A stretch of 64,000 nucleotides of DNA. Source: an uncultured Synechococcaceae cyanobacterium (GTDB lineage: Bacteria > Cyanobacteriota > Cyanobacteriia > PCC-6307 > Cyanobiaceae). The stretch lies in contig CACPJY010000002.1 in the NCBI GenBank assembly GCA_902634405.1, positions 62,001 through 126,000 on the forward strand, given 5' to 3'. Below, piece after piece: positions 22,262 through 32,654 of the stretch (position 1 is its first letter; every line of letters starts with the position of its first letter). The notes beneath the pieces are model-generated. The model was not told the DNA's origin, searched no databases, and worked only from the letters and a program-made list of their open reading frames with translations. The position numbers were made by a program, and so were the translations under genes.

Positions 22262-22407
22262 CTAATTAATTAAACTGGGTAGGACTTGTTTGTCCTGCTT
22301 CGGAGCATAGACATAAAAACCGATCTGAACTCGACGTGTGAAATTCAGATTCAGTTGATTTTTTGCCTCTAATCACGCCTTGAGACGCCAACAGAAAAAG
22401 TCTGGAG

Positions 22408-22421
22408 CGGAGAGGGTGGGA
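22408..22421 (+). repeat. distal att core repeat
   Basis: cggagagggtggga, identical to the tRNA-Ser 3' end at 32430-32443. Confidence 0.85.
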
Positions 22422-22474
22422 AACTCCCTAAATTAACTCAAAGCTAGTAATAGCTAGGTTCTTGACGCCTTGTT

Positions 22475-22493
22475 TGTACCACCCTTTGTACCA
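22475..22493 (+). promoter_or_regulatory. putative integrase arm-type site pair (left)
   Basis: tgtaccaccctttgtacca; 15/19 match to 32357-32375, 53 bp from att core. Confidence 0.6.
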
Positions 22494-22573
22494 CTAGTTA
22501 TATGCTGATTTTTAGTAGGAATAGCTTTAAGAAGCAAGATGCAATATAAATATTTTCTGGTTGATCCTTTTCT

Positions 22574-23623
22574 TTATAATCCAGTACCTCTTCCTTTGTG
22601 AAGGTATTCAATAACTATTTGGTGAAATTTATCTCTAATTATTCCCTCCTTTGAGCAACCTTCCAGCAATATTTGTTGTAATTCACGAGCCACAATACGT
22701 TTATCTTCTTTGCTTATCTTTTGAAGATCAGATTGCAATAGTCGATGCACAAGTATTGCAGCATATAAATCTTGAACCATCAAGGAGGACAAAGAATCAT
22801 TATCTTTTTCACTCAAATTATCTAGCTTAGATTTGGCATCCCTTAGTTTTAAACGTGAATCTAATGCTAATTTTTCTCTATATTTAGTATCCCCTGTTAC
22901 AAGGTTTCCTTTAAATGTCTCTTCAATATTTAAATCAATTTCAGGTCGATTTGTTCCCGTACATTCAGAACAAGTTACTGTCATTGCATTATAAGTATTG
23001 TATGGATCCTTATCAATAAAATTCAATATTTTTCCGCATTCCTTACAATGAGTCGGATCAGAGTTTACAAGAATTTCTTCTACTAATAACTCCAAGTTGA
23101 TGTTAACTGTACTATGATCATCATGCAATAAACTCGCGAAAACCAATGCACCCAGACACCCTAAGTTTAAGACCGATAATATAAGCAAAGGAAAGATTAA
23201 AATTAGCAAGGTAAGACTAGGTGGACTTATTTCCTTCATTGCTAAATATGCAGCAACTGCATTCCCTAAAATAAAATTGTAGTGAATCCCAAAAAATACA
23301 ATTATCAATCTTCTAAATAACTTATTTATGCCGATACTATTCAAATAAGCCCGCACCTTTTTGTATCCTACCGTTATACTTGTTGTGAAATATATGATAG
23401 TAAGTATAGGCAATAATGACTGGAAGAAATTTGGATTGGAGCCCATACCAAAGTATGAGTGGTCAAGCATATAATTAGGAGAAAGATTTAATTCACTTAG
23501 AATATTTATATCAAAGTAAGTAAACTCTATTAAAAGAATAAAAGCGAGACTAGCCCAAGAAAATATCTTGATAAAAATTTCTGGATTATCTTTGCTTAAA
23601 CTATCGAATTGCATTCCTTTCAC
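22574..23623 (-). CDS. polytopic membrane protein with zinc ribbon
   Basis: Several TM segments then CKECGKILNF...VTCSECTG. Confidence 0.7.
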   Translation of the reverse strand: MKGMQFDSLSKDNPEIFIKIFSWASLAFILLIEFTYFDINILSELNLSPNYMLDHSYFGMGSNPNFFQSLLPILTIIYFTTSITVGYKKVRAYLNSIGINKLFRRLIIVFFGIHYNFILGNAVAAYLAMKEISPPSLTLLILIFPLLILSVLNLGCLGALVFASLLHDDHSTVNINLELLVEEILVNSDPTHCKECGKILNFIDKDPYNTYNAMTVTCSECTGTNRPEIDLNIEETFKGNLVTGDTKYREKLALDSRLKLRDAKSKLDNLSEKDNDSLSSLMVQDLYAAILVHRLLQSDLQKISKEDKRIVARELQQILLEGCSKEGIIRDKFHQIVIEYLHKGRGTGL

Positions 23624-23985
23624 TTCTTTCTAAGGTATTGATTATCCTTTATTTGTTTTAACCGCTCCTCCCATAGCGTTAATTCTTCAGCCAACTTCGC
23701 TAAGCCACTTCCAGTCTTCCAAATTCTTTGTCCGCACTTAGAACATTTCCAAGTCGGGTCATCTGATCCTGTGCAACAGCCACCAATGCTTGTTTTTCCA
23801 GCTTCTATTGAGGCATCTAATGCTGGGCTGAAATCGGGCAACCCATAAAGAATCTTGGCGACGGGAGAATGCCCACACTTAGGGCACTCCTTAGGGTGTT
23901 GAGAAGCTTCAATTCGTTCCTGTTTAAAGCGAATCCACGCAGACCTCTGATCATAGAATCCTTTTTGACCTGGCTTAAAAGTCAT
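23620..23985 (-). CDS. zinc-ribbon protein
   Basis: Internal start MTFKPGQKGFYDQ; CPKCGHSPV...WKCSKCGQRIW; overlaps the next gene by 4 nt. Confidence 0.7.
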   Translation of the reverse strand: MTFKPGQKGFYDQRSAWIRFKQERIEASQHPKECPKCGHSPVAKILYGLPDFSPALDASIEAGKTSIGGCCTGSDDPTWKCSKCGQRIWKTGSGLAKLAEELTLWEERLKQIKDNQYLRKK

Positions 23986-24160
23986 CGATATAGCGTCTCC
24001 CGTTCGTTTCTCTAGCAAATCTAGAGTGTCTCCAGGCCCTTGCTTCTCCTTTACATACGTCGACATCAAATTGGTATTGACTGGTAAACGTGCAGGTGTC
24101 TTTTGCCTGAACAGGTGCAGTAAGTCCAAGTAATAACGGTGCAAGTAATAGGCGTTTCAT
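23975..24160 (-). CDS. short exported protein with FDVDVC motif
   Basis: MKRLLLAPLLLGLTAPVQAKDTCTFTSQYQFDVDVCKGEARAW; signal peptide; overlaps upstream gene by 4 nt. Confidence 0.6.
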   Translation of the reverse strand: MKRLLLAPLLLGLTAPVQAKDTCTFTSQYQFDVDVCKGEARAWRHSRFARETNGRRYIDDF

Positions 24161-24510
24161 TCACAGCCACTTCTTAATAGGCAAGCCTTCTTTACTGTCT
24201 TTGTACAGATATTCACGTCAAACCATTCCATTGTTGAAGCAACTCTTGGCATATCTTCCACAGCTTTGATCCTGAGATTGCATTTGTTCTCTTCTCGATA
24301 GACCCAATACCAAGGGTATTTATATATCGGAGAGTTCGTTAGTCGTCTAACAAGATCCTCGCCAAAAACATTGTTGACAAGTCTTACTGCTACTTCCTCT
24401 GACTCTCCACACTCAGCAGAATCCCAACAAGTCATTTTATATCGAGTAGGCGGCTCAGCGTAAGCACCTGGAATTGAAAAGAAGAACAAAGCTAGTAAGA
24501 AGTAGCGCAT
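24157..24510 (-). CDS. exported Cys-rich protein, C-x24-C family
   Basis: MRYFLLALFFFSIPGAYA signal; CNLRIKAVEDMPRVASTMEWFDVNIC. Confidence 0.65.
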   Translation of the reverse strand: MRYFLLALFFFSIPGAYAEPPTRYKMTCWDSAECGESEEVAVRLVNNVFGEDLVRRLTNSPIYKYPWYWVYREENKCNLRIKAVEDMPRVASTMEWFDVNICTKTVKKACLLRSGCE

Positions 24511-25127
24511 TAGATTTCCTTCGCGCGTCTTTGGCATACATCAACCTCGAAATATGCATCTTGATATTTATGGGAGGAGAGGTCTCTTACGGCTTTTAAT
24601 TCCATCTTGCAATTATCTGTATATCGAAAAAGTTTAAAGAAAGGATCTTTACCTGAGAAGTTTCTCCAACTATCAAACTTTTTCTTATACCTTCTTTTGA
24701 CAATTTCCACTGCTTGATTTACTGCTTTTAGTTTTTCATCTTCTTCTATCGCCTTTGTGCTCCAAGGATGATTTTCATTGCACGGGCCACCTTCGAAACG
24801 ACTGCCTCCACAAATATCAAAGCTCCATGGTGACTTCTTAGGATCACCCTCATACAAAAGAATGTTTTCAATAGATCCAGAAAGTATTGGTTCTTTTCTC
24901 TGTTTATTTTTTTTGTAATCCCAAGGAATATATCCAAACTGAAAACCTCTCTTAGTCCTCCAGTGACTACCAGACATAGCCCCACCGCAAGTTTCAACAA
25001 TCTTGTCTACAAAGCATTTCTCCCCTTTGCAAATCTGCATATAGCCTTCGCTATCTCCGCAATCTGCTTTCGCTGGTGACGGAATAAATACAAGGAGTGC
25101 TGTTAGGAAGAAGAAGCGCCGCATCAT
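24510..25127 (-). CDS. exported Cys-rich protein, C-x24-C family
   Basis: MMRRFFFLTALLVFIPSPAKA signal; CKMELKAVRDLSSHKYQDAYFEVDVC. Confidence 0.65.
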   Translation of the reverse strand: MMRRFFFLTALLVFIPSPAKADCGDSEGYMQICKGEKCFVDKIVETCGGAMSGSHWRTKRGFQFGYIPWDYKKNKQRKEPILSGSIENILLYEGDPKKSPWSFDICGGSRFEGGPCNENHPWSTKAIEEDEKLKAVNQAVEIVKRRYKKKFDSWRNFSGKDPFFKLFRYTDNCKMELKAVRDLSSHKYQDAYFEVDVCQRRAKEI

Positions 25128-25576
25128 TATTCTTTCGATCTATCCCAAATACAAATAAAGGCTCCGTTGCTTAAAAGGTACTTGGTTTCCCCTCCAGTAC
25201 TACCTATACGACAAGCAGCCTCTCTTCCTTCGGAGAGTTTTTTATAAGTACCTTTCCATATCTCTTTTCCGTTTGATCTGATCGTGGCCTCATGGAATAG
25301 AGGGCGATTATCTGCTCCTCTAATAACTCCATCCATTGACTCATCAGCACGACTATCGTTCGTCAGAAAGGTAAATTCTGTACCTGATCTAATGGGATTC
25401 ACCGAAAACCATTGCTGACCCATATTGAAATGAGCGTTTAAGAGGCAAACATCGCTCAATTGGGGCTTTTCTTTAGAGAGTTTGTAGTCACATCCATAAA
25501 CCATCGGTCCTGAATTGCTTGACGCAATTACAGGCGAAGCGGCGACTAGAGCTGAAAGCAGTAAACGTCGCAGCAT
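25127..25576 (-). CDS. exported hypothetical protein
   Basis: Start reassigned to MLRRLLLSALVAASPVIAS (signal peptide). Confidence 0.6.
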   Translation of the reverse strand: MLRRLLLSALVAASPVIASSNSGPMVYGCDYKLSKEKPQLSDVCLLNAHFNMGQQWFSVNPIRSGTEFTFLTNDSRADESMDGVIRGADNRPLFHEATIRSNGKEIWKGTYKKLSEGREAACRIGSTGGETKYLLSNGAFICIWDRSKE

Positions 25577-25699
25577 TATCAAGAAATCACTTGGTCCTTT
25601 TTCAAAGGATATTGCGATGGCTGGCATAAGCCAGAAATTCAAGGCAAGTTGATAGTCCCCCAAGAAGCCTGCTCAAGAAAATCAGGTCTAATAAAAACC

Positions 25700-26044
25700 A
25701 TGTGTATCCGCCGGGAAGGAGTGCTACAACTGGAAAATCACTTCAAGACACTTGATGATCAAGAGCTTCGCCAATTAGCTTGGGTTTATATGAGAAGACA
25801 AAGAACCACAGCCGATCAGCATATACGAGACATTATTGGTGGCGAAATACTTCACAGACGCAATGAGAAAGTGTCGAAACTCAATAGAGACCTTTGGTTG
25901 TCTACACGTCGGGGGAAAGTAGTAGAAGCTATTAAGCGTCGTCTTGTCCGCTGGGGGGTTTGGAGGGGAATTCTCTATTCAAGGGAAGAGAATTCATCCA
26001 ACCTTTTCTTTTCTCTAGTCAGAGCCTTTTTTACAGAATCATGA
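25700..26044 (+). CDS. hypothetical protein
   Basis: ORF 25649 trimmed to ATG (MCIRREGVLQLENH). Confidence 0.45.
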   Translation: MCIRREGVLQLENHFKTLDDQELRQLAWVYMRRQRTTADQHIRDIIGGEILHRRNEKVSKLNRDLWLSTRRGKVVEAIKRRLVRWGVWRGILYSREENSSNLFFSLVRAFFTES

Positions 26045-26070
26045 GGGAAAACGGTGGTATTTATGCATCA

Positions 26071-26098
26071 GATCTAGGAAGCATATTGCTCCTAGATC
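26071..26098. terminator. hairpin gatctagga...tcctagatc
   Basis: 9-bp perfect stem extendable with one bulge, in the gap between 26044 and 26134. Confidence 0.45.
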
Positions 26099-26133
26099 GA
26101 GAACGCATTAAAAAGAAATCCACCTAAGGCGAT

Positions 26134-26889
26134 ATGAGTAATCCTTTCTTCGACATCATTCGAGCTGGCAATAAAGAGTTTGAAAATGACAACTATGAAG
26201 AAGCACTCAAGCTTTTCCAAACTGCTATAGAGCTTGAACCAGATTCTTACTGGGGATATTTATTTAGAGGTCAGGTTCAACACGCACAAGGAAACTATTC
26301 TGAGGCAATTAACGATTACACGCAATCAATTAAATACAAACCAGATAATTCATCAAGCTACAGTTTTCGTTCTCATTCGAATTTTCAATTAAATAGATAT
26401 GAAGATGCGATAAATGATCTTAATCAGGCAATAGAGATAGAGCCATTAGATCATTATTTTGGTCGAGCTGGGTTTATTAGAGATAAAATGGGAGACCATC
26501 AGGCTGCAATGGATAATTACAATAAGGCCATTGAAATCAACCCAGATTCTCCAATTCACTTTAGTAATCGAGGTTGCTTAAAAAGCGAAATTGGAGATGA
26601 TGCAGGTGCTATAAAAGATCACCTAAAGGCCATTGAAATAGATCCTACTTACTCAGAGGCATATCACAGCATAGGCTCTAAAAAATATGATATGGGTGAT
26701 TTCAATTCTGCTATTGATTGGTATGAAAAATGTGTAACTATCGATCAAAATAGAGGTAATACTTTTTATTTACTGGGGCGCTCATATTGGAATTTAGGAA
26801 GGGAAAAAGAAGCTATAAATAACTTTAAAATGGCTAGTTCATTAGGAGATGAAAAAGCTATTAATTTATTGCAGGAATATGCTAAATAA
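26134..26889 (+). CDS. TPR-repeat protein
   Basis: Repeated TPR units (YxEAINDYTQSIKYKPDN, YEDAINDLNQAIEIEPLD, HQAAMDNYNKAIEINPDS). Confidence 0.85.
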   Translation: MSNPFFDIIRAGNKEFENDNYEEALKLFQTAIELEPDSYWGYLFRGQVQHAQGNYSEAINDYTQSIKYKPDNSSSYSFRSHSNFQLNRYEDAINDLNQAIEIEPLDHYFGRAGFIRDKMGDHQAAMDNYNKAIEINPDSPIHFSNRGCLKSEIGDDAGAIKDHLKAIEIDPTYSEAYHSIGSKKYDMGDFNSAIDWYEKCVTIDQNRGNTFYLLGRSYWNLGREKEAINNFKMASSLGDEKAINLLQEYAK

Positions 26890-27505
26890 GCTTTATAGAT
26901 TAATTCATAGGCTGAGGTTTAGATACCCATGGAGGGATGGAATAGGAGGTTGGGAGTTATCTATGCACTATGACCTGCTGGATCCAGATGATCCAGATTA
27001 TGATGTTCCTCCATACATAAATGTTTGGGAACATAAGGATGGACGTAAAGCCCAAGAAGGACCAGGCTTTTGCTCTGATCCAGATCTGGCTTGGTTCCTT
27101 CTTGAGCAGAAAAAAAATGAACAACTTCAGAGAAGCATTAGCAGAGTGACCGATAAAATTTGTTTTTCTCTAATTGCTTCACAGTGGCTTCTATTGATCA
27201 TTCAAGGAAGCATGAGTATTCCAAATAGTGGTGCTTGGTTTCTTTTTTCTCTCATTGGATACGCTTTAGTCTTTTTAGGTTTAATAGGCTCAGTTGGCTA
27301 TCTTATTAGAATTTTTGCTCCGAGACCTAGAGAAATCAATCAAGTTAAATTCTTCATAAGGTCTGTTCTTGCAATTACTTCTGGTTATTTGCTAATCAAC
27401 ATAGGCAAATTTGATACCTTATATTTAGGCTTTTATGAAATAGAGATCTTTTGGTTTGGAATATATATGGGATTGATAAATGTTGCTATCAAAGATTTAA
27501 TCTGA
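26879..27505 (+). CDS. membrane protein, hypothetical
   Basis: ATG overlaps the TPR gene 3' end; C-terminal hydrophobic segments. Confidence 0.55.
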   Translation: MLNKLYRLIHRLRFRYPWRDGIGGWELSMHYDLLDPDDPDYDVPPYINVWEHKDGRKAQEGPGFCSDPDLAWFLLEQKKNEQLQRSISRVTDKICFSLIASQWLLLIIQGSMSIPNSGAWFLFSLIGYALVFLGLIGSVGYLIRIFAPRPREINQVKFFIRSVLAITSGYLLINIGKFDTLYLGFYEIEIFWFGIYMGLINVAIKDLI

Positions 27506-27532
27506 TTAAACAAAAACTGACTTTAAAAACTC

Positions 27533-28675
27533 TTATCTCCAATCGCTAAATAAATCCAAATTCTCATTCTCTAATAATCCTAAAGTAAGCTTACAAGGAC
27601 CTCCAAGTTGATTGTTTAGTAAGGAATTAGCCTCCTTGCATCCAGCCTGGCCAAAGAGGGTAAGACTGCTAATAGTTTTTTTCGCATCTAATTCACTCCC
27701 CATAAGCTTTTCGAGAGTCATTTCTGGATTATCTAGTTGCTCTTCAATTATTTTCACAACGTCTCTATATCTAGAACCTATAACAGCCGCTGAATAATAA
27801 TCTTTTGCTTCTTGTAAATTCTTAATGCCATATAGCTTGGACTTTCTTGAGTTCCCAAGATAGCTTAGTTGGGGCAATATATACCAAATCCAATGACCAC
27901 ACTTACGTCCTGATTTAAGTTCTTTAATTGCCCTTTTAAAAGTATCTGGATCTCCTTTTTGCTGGGCACCAAATAAAACCTTATATTTTGCACTTCCAAA
28001 TGAAATCGTCTCAGTCCTTCGAAACATTTTTCGATCCTTTTCGATCTTATTCTGTTCGATCTTATCCCAATAATTTTTCATTAGCCAATATCCATCATCT
28101 GAAAAAAGAATAAACATTATTCCTAAAGTTAAAAAGAATGCAATCCATCCATAATTGAGACACATATATATATATGTGATGACCAAGACTAAGCTTGTGA
28201 GAAATATAAATAAGTCAGAGAATATATCCATAAGTCTATATCTAATTCTGTCCAGAGCTTCTTTCTTTTTGGAAGAACGCCTGACTTTTTTCCCATTGTA
28301 AGTTAATGCATCTTCTAGATGATTTCTCAATAAGTTCCTCGTTCTTCTCCTTGAAATCTCTATATCGACAGGCAAATGATTAATATGCTTAACTCCTTCT
28401 TTTGATACAGACACCTCTACAAGGCCTTCTTTCTCCGTAAGAATATGTTTACCTGTTTCTAAACTATTCCAATCAATACCAAGGTTTTTATATGCTTTTT
28501 TGACTATTAAAAACTGATGGACCTCAGATATCTGCCTCCGATTCAATATATCCTCATCTAAAAGATTTACATAGCGATTATCTAATTCATCTATATCAAA
28601 AATTTCTCCATACCTCTCCTGAAAGACTTCTCGTAGCCTTTCCTTGTTAAACACAATGAGCTCTTTTCGATCCAT
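27533..28675 (-). CDS. membrane protein with C-terminal DUF1810 (Rv1873-like) domain
   Basis: Central TM region; FKRAIKELKSGRKCGHWIWYILPQLSYLGNSRKSKLYGIKNLQEAKDYYSA...SSLTLF. Confidence 0.7.
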   Translation of the reverse strand: MDRKELIVFNKERLREVFQERYGEIFDIDELDNRYVNLLDEDILNRRQISEVHQFLIVKKAYKNLGIDWNSLETGKHILTEKEGLVEVSVSKEGVKHINHLPVDIEISRRRTRNLLRNHLEDALTYNGKKVRRSSKKKEALDRIRYRLMDIFSDLFIFLTSLVLVITYIYMCLNYGWIAFFLTLGIMFILFSDDGYWLMKNYWDKIEQNKIEKDRKMFRRTETISFGSAKYKVLFGAQQKGDPDTFKRAIKELKSGRKCGHWIWYILPQLSYLGNSRKSKLYGIKNLQEAKDYYSAAVIGSRYRDVVKIIEEQLDNPEMTLEKLMGSELDAKKTISSLTLFGQAGCKEANSLLNNQLGGPCKLTLGLLENENLDLFSDWR

Positions 28676-28975
28676 ATTTGTTTTTTAGATTGATTTCAAA
28701 GGATTGTGAAAGCCTTGGATGGACCTAAATTAAGTGCAAAAGAGCGTTCACCGAATCAAACATAACTATTTTTACTTTGGATTTACAAGGTCGTCTTCAT
28801 ATAGATAAACCAAAGGGAATCCCCCCTTGGCCTTATGTCTCCTCTACATACAGTAAAAGATTTATTTTTATTTTTATTTTTAAACAAATATTAGAACATT
28901 ATTCATTGATTTATACGTACATATATGCGAGAATAGTTATCAGTAGACACTCAACTCTCAATCGACTAAGTATTA

Positions 28976-29161
28976 ATGAAGACCATCCCTACTGCTAAAA
29001 GACGTTGGAACTCTGCAGTTACTTATCAAACATTTGACCGCATTGAAGACTTCACATTTAAGCATAAGATTCAACTTCAAGAACTTGCTGAAAATCTCTT
29101 CAGTCAGTTACCTGATGAACTTCTAGAACAGTATGCCTTGAGAGAGAAGACTATCCCCTAA
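28976..29161 (+). CDS. small protein upstream of helicase, possible regulator
   Basis: 61 aa, same strand as the helicase, 57 nt upstream. Confidence 0.45.
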   Translation: MKTIPTAKRRWNSAVTYQTFDRIEDFTFKHKIQLQELAENLFSQLPDELLEQYALREKTIP

Positions 29162-29218
29162 CAAAACAAAACCCCTGACTAGATAGCCAAGGGTTGTTGT
29201 TACTACTTTTATAATTCT

Positions 29219-30559
29219 ATGACTACTAATCTCTTATTGCAAGAGAGTCATTTTCGTGTATCTAGCACAGGTTCTCTTGTCCTGAATATTGATGATCAAC
29301 GTATCTTAGATCTGGGTTATGCCAAGATCTCAAACATTAGAAGTACAGATCTCATATACGTTCTTGAAGCTCTTCAAGCATCTGAAACCTTCCGTTGGGA
29401 CAAAGCTAAAAGAAGAGTTCTTTGGGGAGATCAGCTTCTAACAGAGGCTGATATGGAAGTACTTCATTTGCGACTTTCTAAAGAACACGGAATTAACTTC
29501 CCTCCTAAGCAAACACGCTTAGCCATTGAGGCAATGGCCCTGAAGAACAGCTTTGATTCCTTTGAAGAGAAGCTTCTGGAGATTGAACACTTAGTTGAAC
29601 CGATCCCTATCAATAACCTCAGTACTCGTTACTTCAAAACTAAAAAGCCTATCTATGACAAGTACCTTGAACTTTGGCTTGTTAATTGGGTCAAACGTCA
29701 ATTAGAGCCTGGTTGCTACAACCGCACAATGCTTGTGGTTCAAGGTCCTCAAAACATCGGCAAGGATCAGTTCGTCAAGATCCTGGCGGGAGACAACAAC
29801 AGCACTTCAGTTGGTTGCACTGCCAACTTCAAAGACAAAGATCTTTTAACAACCTTCAACAGCAAGAGTGTTCTCCTTTTTGAAGAGCTAGAGCAAACCA
29901 CTGGAAGGGTGGTCGAAGGAGCTCTGAAATCTTTCCTCTCAGAAACCAGTGATAGTTACGTGATGAAGTACAAGAGTCACGCAGAGGACTATCCCCGTCG
30001 TTGTAGCTATTGGGGTTCTTGTAATAAGCAGGAATTCCTTACTGATCTAACTGGCAATACAAGGTTCCACGTCATACCAGTTGAAGTTGACTCAAAGAGA
30101 GGTCAGGCAATAGACCTAGAACAACTCAAGAAAGAAAGAGAAGCAATCATTTCAGGAGCAATAAAGCTTTATAGGAAACACAAAGAAGGTTTTTATTCAC
30201 TTGAACTCACTCAAGATGAACGCAGTCAATCTGAAGATCTAAACGCTAATTATCTAGAGGTCTCTCAATACGAAGAGCCCTTGGCAGAACTACTAGAAGG
30301 TCGTACCGCTGTATGTATGGACGAGATTCGTGAATGCATTGATCTCACTCTTGGCTATATCGATAAACGAATGGAGAAGGAAATCAAGAAAGCCATGGGA
30401 GCACTTGGATTTAAAGCTCTTCCTTCTCCTAGAAAGGTTCGATGGGCTGGAGGGGACAAGTCTGTGAGGCCATGGATTCGAAATAATGGGCCCCAACCTG
30501 ACTACCTTGAGATAGCCGACTATTACCAACCGAAGCAGAGAGGTGAAAGAGATTTTTAA
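29219..30559 (+). CDS. VapE/VirE-family (SF3-like) helicase/replication protein
   Basis: VVQGPQNIGKDQFVKILAG; VLLFEELEQT; SCNKQEFLTDLTGNTRFHVIPVE. Confidence 0.85.
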   Translation: MTTNLLLQESHFRVSSTGSLVLNIDDQRILDLGYAKISNIRSTDLIYVLEALQASETFRWDKAKRRVLWGDQLLTEADMEVLHLRLSKEHGINFPPKQTRLAIEAMALKNSFDSFEEKLLEIEHLVEPIPINNLSTRYFKTKKPIYDKYLELWLVNWVKRQLEPGCYNRTMLVVQGPQNIGKDQFVKILAGDNNSTSVGCTANFKDKDLLTTFNSKSVLLFEELEQTTGRVVEGALKSFLSETSDSYVMKYKSHAEDYPRRCSYWGSCNKQEFLTDLTGNTRFHVIPVEVDSKRGQAIDLEQLKKEREAIISGAIKLYRKHKEGFYSLELTQDERSQSEDLNANYLEVSQYEEPLAELLEGRTAVCMDEIRECIDLTLGYIDKRMEKEIKKAMGALGFKALPSPRKVRWAGGDKSVRPWIRNNGPQPDYLEIADYYQPKQRGERDF

Positions 30560-30616
30560 GAGGCTTTAGTGATTGACGGCTCTTTTAGATAAGGCTTAGG
30601 CGCAGCCTTCTACAGG

Positions 30617-30714
30617 AAACTACAAAAACACTACCTAATTCAAAAAACTACCTCTTAACTACATCTCGACTACTCGACTTTCGATGCACCAGAAGGTGAC
30701 TACAGAAACTACAA
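30617..30714. repeat. iteron-like cluster of seven (n)actac motifs
   Basis: actac at 30619, 30630, 30647, 30658, 30669, 30699, 30708 (spacings 11,17,11,11,30,9). Confidence 0.65.
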
Positions 30715-30821
30715 CTTTTTAGAGAAACTCTTTTAGGAATAAGAGTATAAAGAACCTTCTAAATAGCTTCTATATAATTCTATGTAGTCGTTTTATTTAT
30801 ATATACGACCAAGGCCACAAC

Positions 30822-32351
30822 CTAGTGATCAATTAAAAGGAAATCTATTGTAGATACAATTTCATTGAGTCTCTCAATCTTAAAACCTTGGCCATACATA
30901 TTACTTACTTCTTGATTACTATGACCTCGAATAGAATCCATAATTGATTGATCTAATCCAGGGATCTTTCCAAAATGATCCCGTAAAACATCTGCGTGAT
31001 AGTGCCTTGCTGAGTAAAGAACAACCGTTAAATCTTTGATCTGCAACTCTCCCCTAAGAACTGTTTTACTCCACCTTTCAGACCACTTGGAGCTTACTTT
31101 CCCATATTTGTCTTCTCTAAGATCTTTGAAAACCCTCTCTCCTAGTGAAGCCTCTCTTACAAAAGCCTCTAAACCAAGTTCAATTAAACACTTAGGGATA
31201 GGGACATCTCTAAGGCTATTTTCTGTTTTAGGAGCGGCTTTATTAATGTCATTGATTTGCAAATACAACTTACCGTTCTGATCTTTTTTGAAATCACCTC
31301 CCAACAAAGAAGCTGCTTCCTCATTCCTTACACCAGTGGCAATCATCAGCAAAGGAATCCATTTGTCAGCAGGGCTTTTGCCTTCTTCTAAGCAATTGCG
31401 AACTATTTGTTTTACTTCTTCTGAAGTGAATGGACGTCTATCAGATGCTTTGCTTCGTTTAATAGTGAGATTTTGATTATTAAAAGGGTTATGCCAGTTC
31501 TCAATTAAGCCATCTTTCTTAACACTATTAGTTATCGACTGAAGATGGACAATCTTGTTCTTGATTGTTCGAGGTTTTAGTCCTTTGTGAGATTTGTGTC
31601 TCATCCACTCTTTGACATCTTTTCTAGTAATACTCCTCAAACTTGAGAGTTTTGTATCTGCCAACCACTGTTTAGCAGTGCTCTTAAATGTGTCCCGAGT
31701 TTTTAAGTTCTTCTTATCTCTTGACCAGTACTCCCAAGCTTTAAGCAAATCAAGGTCAGATTCTTGTCCTCTTGAATACGGATCTTCTGGATCTGTAAGA
31801 CCCTGAGCTCTGGATTCAAGCGTTTTTATTGCTCTTTCAAACGCTTTCTCAAACCGATAAGAAAGCTCAGAGATATCAATCTTTTCTTTATGCAATTTTG
31901 TCTCTTCTTCGGCGATAGCATCAAACCTTTCTTCTATGTAAGTTCGCACTCCATTTCCATTGTCACTACAAGGAAGTCCATACGCTTCTAGAACATCTCC
32001 AGCCTTGAAATGCCTACCGTCATAAGAGTCTTCGAACTCCTGCAAAAGCCTTCTATAAAACTTCCCTGTTATTACATTGAGTTGGTTAGGTGTTACCTCA
32101 GCTGATGAAATTTGGGGTGATAGTTTTACACCCTCTTTTGCTGCATTAATTATTGCTCTGAATTTGTCTTCTATTGGGGGGCCGAGAAGTTTCGCTCTAT
32201 TCAAATCTTTCGTTCCAAGAGATTTTTTTAGCTCTGTCTTTCCAATAACCGACCTCAAAGATTTAGGAACAGCAATCCTTACTCCATAAGTTCCTGCCCG
32301 TTGATACAAAGCCAATCGACGAAATCGATAATTTGCACTGATGATAGACAA
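30822..32351 (-). CDS. tyrosine recombinase / phage-type integrase
   Basis: TGVRNEEAASL; YSARHYHADVLR; IRGHSNQEVSNMYG (R..HxxR..H..Y); N-terminal SAM-like domain; TTG start. Confidence 0.93.
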   Translation of the reverse strand: MSIISANYRFRRLALYQRAGTYGVRIAVPKSLRSVIGKTELKKSLGTKDLNRAKLLGPPIEDKFRAIINAAKEGVKLSPQISSAEVTPNQLNVITGKFYRRLLQEFEDSYDGRHFKAGDVLEAYGLPCSDNGNGVRTYIEERFDAIAEEETKLHKEKIDISELSYRFEKAFERAIKTLESRAQGLTDPEDPYSRGQESDLDLLKAWEYWSRDKKNLKTRDTFKSTAKQWLADTKLSSLRSITRKDVKEWMRHKSHKGLKPRTIKNKIVHLQSITNSVKKDGLIENWHNPFNNQNLTIKRSKASDRRPFTSEEVKQIVRNCLEEGKSPADKWIPLLMIATGVRNEEAASLLGGDFKKDQNGKLYLQINDINKAAPKTENSLRDVPIPKCLIELGLEAFVREASLGERVFKDLREDKYGKVSSKWSERWSKTVLRGELQIKDLTVVLYSARHYHADVLRDHFGKIPGLDQSIMDSIRGHSNQEVSNMYGQGFKIERLNEIVSTIDFLLIDH

Positions 32352-32356
32352 AAAAA

Positions 32357-32375
32357 TGTACCTGGTTTTGTACCA
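32357..32375 (+). promoter_or_regulatory. putative integrase arm-type site pair (right)
   Basis: tgtacctggttttgtacca directly upstream of int, 54 bp from the att core. Confidence 0.6.
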
Positions 32376-32429
32376 AGCACGTCAAAAACTTTAGCTATAG
32401 CTTAGATCCCTTGCAGGAGAGCAGTTAAA

Positions 32430-32514
32430 CGGAGAGGGTGGGATTCGAACCCACGGACGGTTTCCCGTCAAACGATTTCGAGTCGTTCGCTTTCGACCAC
32501 TCAGCCACCTCTCC
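32430..32514 (-). tRNA. tRNA-Ser (CGA)
   Basis: GGAGAGGTGGCCGAGTGGTCGAAAGCGAACGACTCGAAATCGTTTGACGGG...GGGTTCGAATCCCACCCTCTCCG; class II with variable arm; anticodon CGA. Confidence 0.97.
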
Positions 32515-32654
32515 AAGGTTGATTAATTCTAGGTCTTTGCTTATCTCTTAAATGAGAGCCCATTTAAAAGTTGTCGTGATTATTTTAAAAGTTTTTTTCT
32601 GAAATAGATAGCTTCTAAAACTCTTCTTCTGTATAATATCATATTTATAATTTA

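Follow-up and report, generated by a model that had tools for sequence, protein, structure and literature searches.

The window, a 64 kb stretch of DNA, carries a 10 kb Prochlorococcus-like element, delimited by the repeats described below, that encodes a tyrosine integrase and a VapE-type primase. The left att core, CGGAGAGGGTGGGA (22408–22421, plus strand), is a duplicated tRNA-Ser 3' end. The right core (32430–32443, plus strand) is within the 3' end of tRNA-Ser(CGA) (32429–32515, minus strand), which is the integration target. Even with up to one mismatch allowed, the core CGGAGAGGGTG(GGA) is found in the window only at 22408 and 32430. The integrase gene, int, is on the minus strand (30822–32351) with a TTG start at 32351, and an N-terminal DUF6538 domain covers residues 14–70 of its product. 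The gene for the VapE-like primase/helicase (29219–30559, plus strand; 89% identical in genome G177) adjoins an ORF of 61 aa (28976–29161, plus strand) that is 89–90% conserved in G177. This ORF gave no family match and no excisionase match and is a candidate for an accessory or regulatory protein. To the left of the left core, the sequence at 22380–22408 is similar to the right end found in a different class of element (ACGCC..GACGCC); the window element was therefore probably inserted beside an older one.

The integrase is rare. A protein about 78% identical to it is found in G177 (Prochlorococcus AG-436-C13) and fragments are found in G128 (AG-404-B19) and G209. A search of viral contigs gave no match to it and its only two phage matches are weak. 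Structure prediction from two sequences gave a pLDDT of 33. Read by eye, box II of the integrase (30822–32351) is YSARHY, as it is in the G177 integrase, with Tyr in place of the His of many tyrosine recombinases. Our literature search returned no paper naming DUF6538 and no arm site described for DUF6538 integrases.

Inside the two cores lie the copies of a paired motif, TGTACCN5TTGTACCA, that has exactly two matches in the window and none in 100 dinucleotide shuffles. The left copy, TGTACCACCCTTTGTACCA (22475–22493, plus strand), contains two TGTACCA units 12 bp apart, at +67 and +79 from the core start. The right copy, TGTACCTGGTTTTGTACCA (32357–32375, plus strand), contains two TGTACC units, also 12 bp apart, at –73 and –61. 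The original prediction gave a 15/19 match between the copies with paired units 12 bp apart, and gaps of 53 bp to the left core (22422–22474) and 54 bp to the right core (32376–32429). These values are exact and both copies are on the same strand. It also described the copies as symmetric around the core of a circular attP, which holds for their spacing but not for their orientation, because the copies are direct and not mirror images. When every offset up to about 110 bp from either end was allowed, a left–right match this good occurred in 3.7% of shuffles for the window element and in 0.3% and 0.7% for the two other complete elements. The strength of the arm motif thus comes from relatives and not from the window alone.

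To find such relatives we scanned 400 genomes of the family for the exact motif. This gave nine matches, seven of which are at a CGGAGAGGGTG core, face the element end, and lie at the same distance from the core. The remaining two, in G170 and G379, have no core there and were taken as chance. In 4/4 cases the left arm begins 67 bp past the core start. The right arm begins 73 bp before it in 5/5, with a single change in one unit in each of G370 and G128. Leaving the left gap free between 40 and 70 bp (31 values) still placed all four matches at the same spacing. The motif is present at two left ends and one right end in G177, at both ends in G370, and at right ends in G209 and G128. The sample of close relatives is small, consisting of three complete elements and another three ends found singly. 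The original prediction had proposed looking for the paired motif inside the att cores of related elements and had named its absence as the outcome that would count against it. Instead, the motif occurs at the same distance in all four of these genomes and is conserved with the cognate integrase. Mean pairwise identity within the left arm is 97%; it falls to 43% immediately past the arm and is 30% on the outer side of the core. For the right arm it is 89%, with 51% beyond the arm. Conservation is fairly high between arm and core as well (83% and 77%). The G370 element (L042 10174–12485) is only 2.3 kb long and has both arms, two prepilin-like ORFs as cargo, and no int, indicating that the ends persist without int.

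Similar arms also accompany more distant integrases at a different tRNA. Integrases 25–30% identical to the window integrase are located at tRNA-Ala(CGC) in four genomes (G285, G107, G291, and G243). Just upstream of int these elements have TGCACCCA units that are 12 bp apart, with an 11/12 mix in G243. Across the whole genome, paired TGCACCCA occurs in G285 and G107 only at both ends of elements of 12.6–12.9 kb, and in G291 only at one left end and one right end on two contigs; in G243 the pair is at the right end only. The left units are at +88, +100, and sometimes +112, and the right units at about –100, –88, and –76, from the core TGGAGAATAGGGG. A VapE homologue, 25–31% identical to that of the window, is present in the tRNA-Ala elements (checked in G285 and G107). 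Pfam gave no DUF6538 in the tRNA-Ala integrases, whose N-terminal similarity is weak (E about 0.4–5) and in which box II reads HSSRH or HSCRH. The recurrence of 12-bp paired arms with this integrase lineage at two tRNA targets indicates that the arm follows the integrase and not the tRNA.

These comparisons bear on whether the likeness of the arms is due to chance, or to shared ancestry without function. The shuffle result for the window element on its own and the conservation between arm and core would fit such an explanation. We nonetheless regard it as extremely improbable, because arm positions are identical in six loci, their placement is end-specific, and a different sequence at another tRNA has the same 12-bp period. 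The paired motifs are very probably arm-type sites bound by the tyrosine integrase that the element itself encodes. This reading, made in the original prediction and well supported by sequence comparison, is based on matching motifs that are equidistant from both ends and recur at the ends of close and distant related elements. As is expected of arm sites, these are short repeats inside the element that flank the att core on both sides.

It is unlikely that the paired units are instead the sites of a recombination directionality factor (Xis). Xis sites are usually confined to one arm, and the units here are equally spaced on either side of the core. The element does encode a small conserved protein, the 61-aa ORF, but this has no excisionase match. 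Xis-type proteins recognise direct repeats arranged in tandem at a distance of about one helix turn (PMC7498355), but the period here is 12 bp and not 10–11 bp in both lineages, apart from the mixed tRNA-Ala end, and its occurrence on either side of the core speaks against Xis sites.

The right copy was also predicted to be immediately upstream of int, and the int frame does open 5 bp away at the TTG. The A7 tract at 32350–32356 (plus strand) is U7 in RNA made in the int direction, and 7–8 A are present in 5/5 right ends. We rejected the right copy as coding sequence; the length of the adjacent T-run varies between 7 and 8 bases among relatives, and this difference alters the frame, which places the copy upstream of int. 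A new observation here is that the right arm, on the minus strand and in the int direction, forms a terminator-like hairpin followed by the U-run (U7–8 in relatives). A terminator scan of the region found one where 0.3 were expected, and MFE z-scores of the hairpin ranged from –0.8 to –3.2 in five right ends. The arm sits between tRNA-Ser and int, which are both on the minus strand and 77 bp apart, and no sigma-70-like promoter was recognised between them. Autoregulation through att-overlapping promoters is known for many integrase genes linked to tRNAs (PMC2951348). Such data could mean that the right copy serves mainly as a transcription terminator or an int operator between tRNA-Ser and int, with the left copy incidental. 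We consider this very unlikely. The left copy is more conserved than the right, yet it has neither a U-run nor a gene to terminate; the right end with its arm copy is kept in G370 where there is no int; and a U-run is missing from the right arms of the tRNA-Ala elements. The right copy may have a further role besides that of an arm site. Its hairpin may block read-through from the tRNA or serve autoregulation. The original prediction suggested autoregulation from the place of the copy next to the int start; this is plausible, but the idea that the integrase represses its own gene is weakly supported.

Between each arm and its core there is a second pair of sites, in inverted orientation. The reverse complement of the left inner site (22449–22467, minus strand), CGTCAAGAACCTAGCTATT, matches the right inner site, CGTCAAAAACTTTAGCTAT (32380–32398, plus strand), around an axis near core position 5. 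The pair is CGTCAA-AAC-TAGCTAT in the window; in both G177 and G370 it is CA(T/C)CAA-AACCTAGTTAT. Each C/T or G/A difference is found at both ends of the same element, so the ends co-vary. The inverted match gave p values of 0.27, 0.007, and 0.017 for the three elements; these are individually modest, so this inverted repeat, a new feature, is suggestive only. Only weak matches to such a repeat were seen in the tRNA-Ala class.

If the paired motifs are integrase arm sites, the order in the excised circle would be right arm, inner site, core, inner site, left arm, with the arms at about ±70 bp and the inner sites at about ±42 bp from the core. In the likely model, the DUF6538 N-terminal domain would hold the paired TGTACCA units with the catalytic domain on the core, and an accessory protein would occupy the inner inverted sites and either bend the DNA or determine direction. 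Pattern searches of viral contigs for the excised attP, or for either end, did not find them. Among the 128 matches listed for the exact motif in viral contigs, none had a core at an arm-like position and almost all are chance.

The tRNA-Ser core is also used by other elements. A contig of G177 (C1:86214–113641; L224, L041) has nine tandem att cores in 27 kb, with up to eight elements stacked. One stretch of it (L041 4128–8282) has the left end of the window-element class and the right end of another class. We examined other-class ends from L041, L044, and L222–L227 (G177, G209, G108, G134, G010, G172, and G051). These ends at the same core have 10-bp-phased direct repeats, the sequence of which differs with each class. 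Lag-10 identity was 0.395 in 12 strictly non-redundant left ends versus 0.27 in windows drawn at random from these loci, with 0 of 2000 reaching the higher value. Some short elements have similar units at both ends (GAACAGGT, GGCAC, or GGAC). At L044 9511–10022, about 0.5 kb separates two cores; GGCAC repeats mark either end of this interval, for which the ORF list has no long entry. The hotspot also harbours two integrases of other types.

The sequences of these ends suggest that several private arm codes share a single core. At slightly less than an even chance, we propose that the tRNA-Ser(CGA) hotspot hosts many element classes that share one crossover core and each have their own arm code (12-bp TGTACCA pairs, or 10-bp-phased GAACAGGT, GGCAC, or GGAC). 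The code would decide which integrase moves which element, including integrase-less cassettes of 0.5–2.3 kb, so that arrays of up to eight could be built and remodelled in trans. This suggests how picocyanobacterial genomic islands gather many cassettes at one tRNA, each separately mobilisable. The arm motif provides a signature for finding both ends of an element, including cassettes that have lost their integrase. As what is very probably a known kind of site in a new integrase lineage (DUF6538), it also makes a concrete binding experiment possible.

The tycheposons of Prochlorococcus were reportedly defined by Hackl et al. in 2023. As far as they are described in PMC10872708, these are tyrosine-recombinase elements with cargo at picocyanobacterial tRNA genes that are linked to island remodelling. 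The window element is likewise a tyrosine-recombinase element at a tRNA gene among Prochlorococcus relatives, a likeness drawn from that description only. In KplE1, the intS control region overlaps the att site as it does here (PMC2951348); autoregulation is proven there, whereas the window element has the 77 bp tRNA–int gap with no recognised promoter. The anatomy of the window element matches the arm-type sites of AB-domain tyrosine integrases in the account of lambda-type integrases in PMC8138268, which are alike in having core-distal arm sites and an extra N-terminal integrase domain; that account, as consulted here, does not place DUF6538 among them. The attP sites of mycobacteriophages L5, Giles, CrimD, and Pixie have paired or triplet short arm-type repeats that flank the core beside int; these repeats are direct in L5, Giles, and most of Pixie, and related phages with the same core can differ in their arms (PMC3203893). 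With paired arm sites that flank cores at tRNA-type targets, they closely resemble the anatomy proposed for the window element. By contrast, the integrase lineage and the repeat are different here, the 12-bp period is found in two lineages, and the inner inverted repeat co-varies between the ends.
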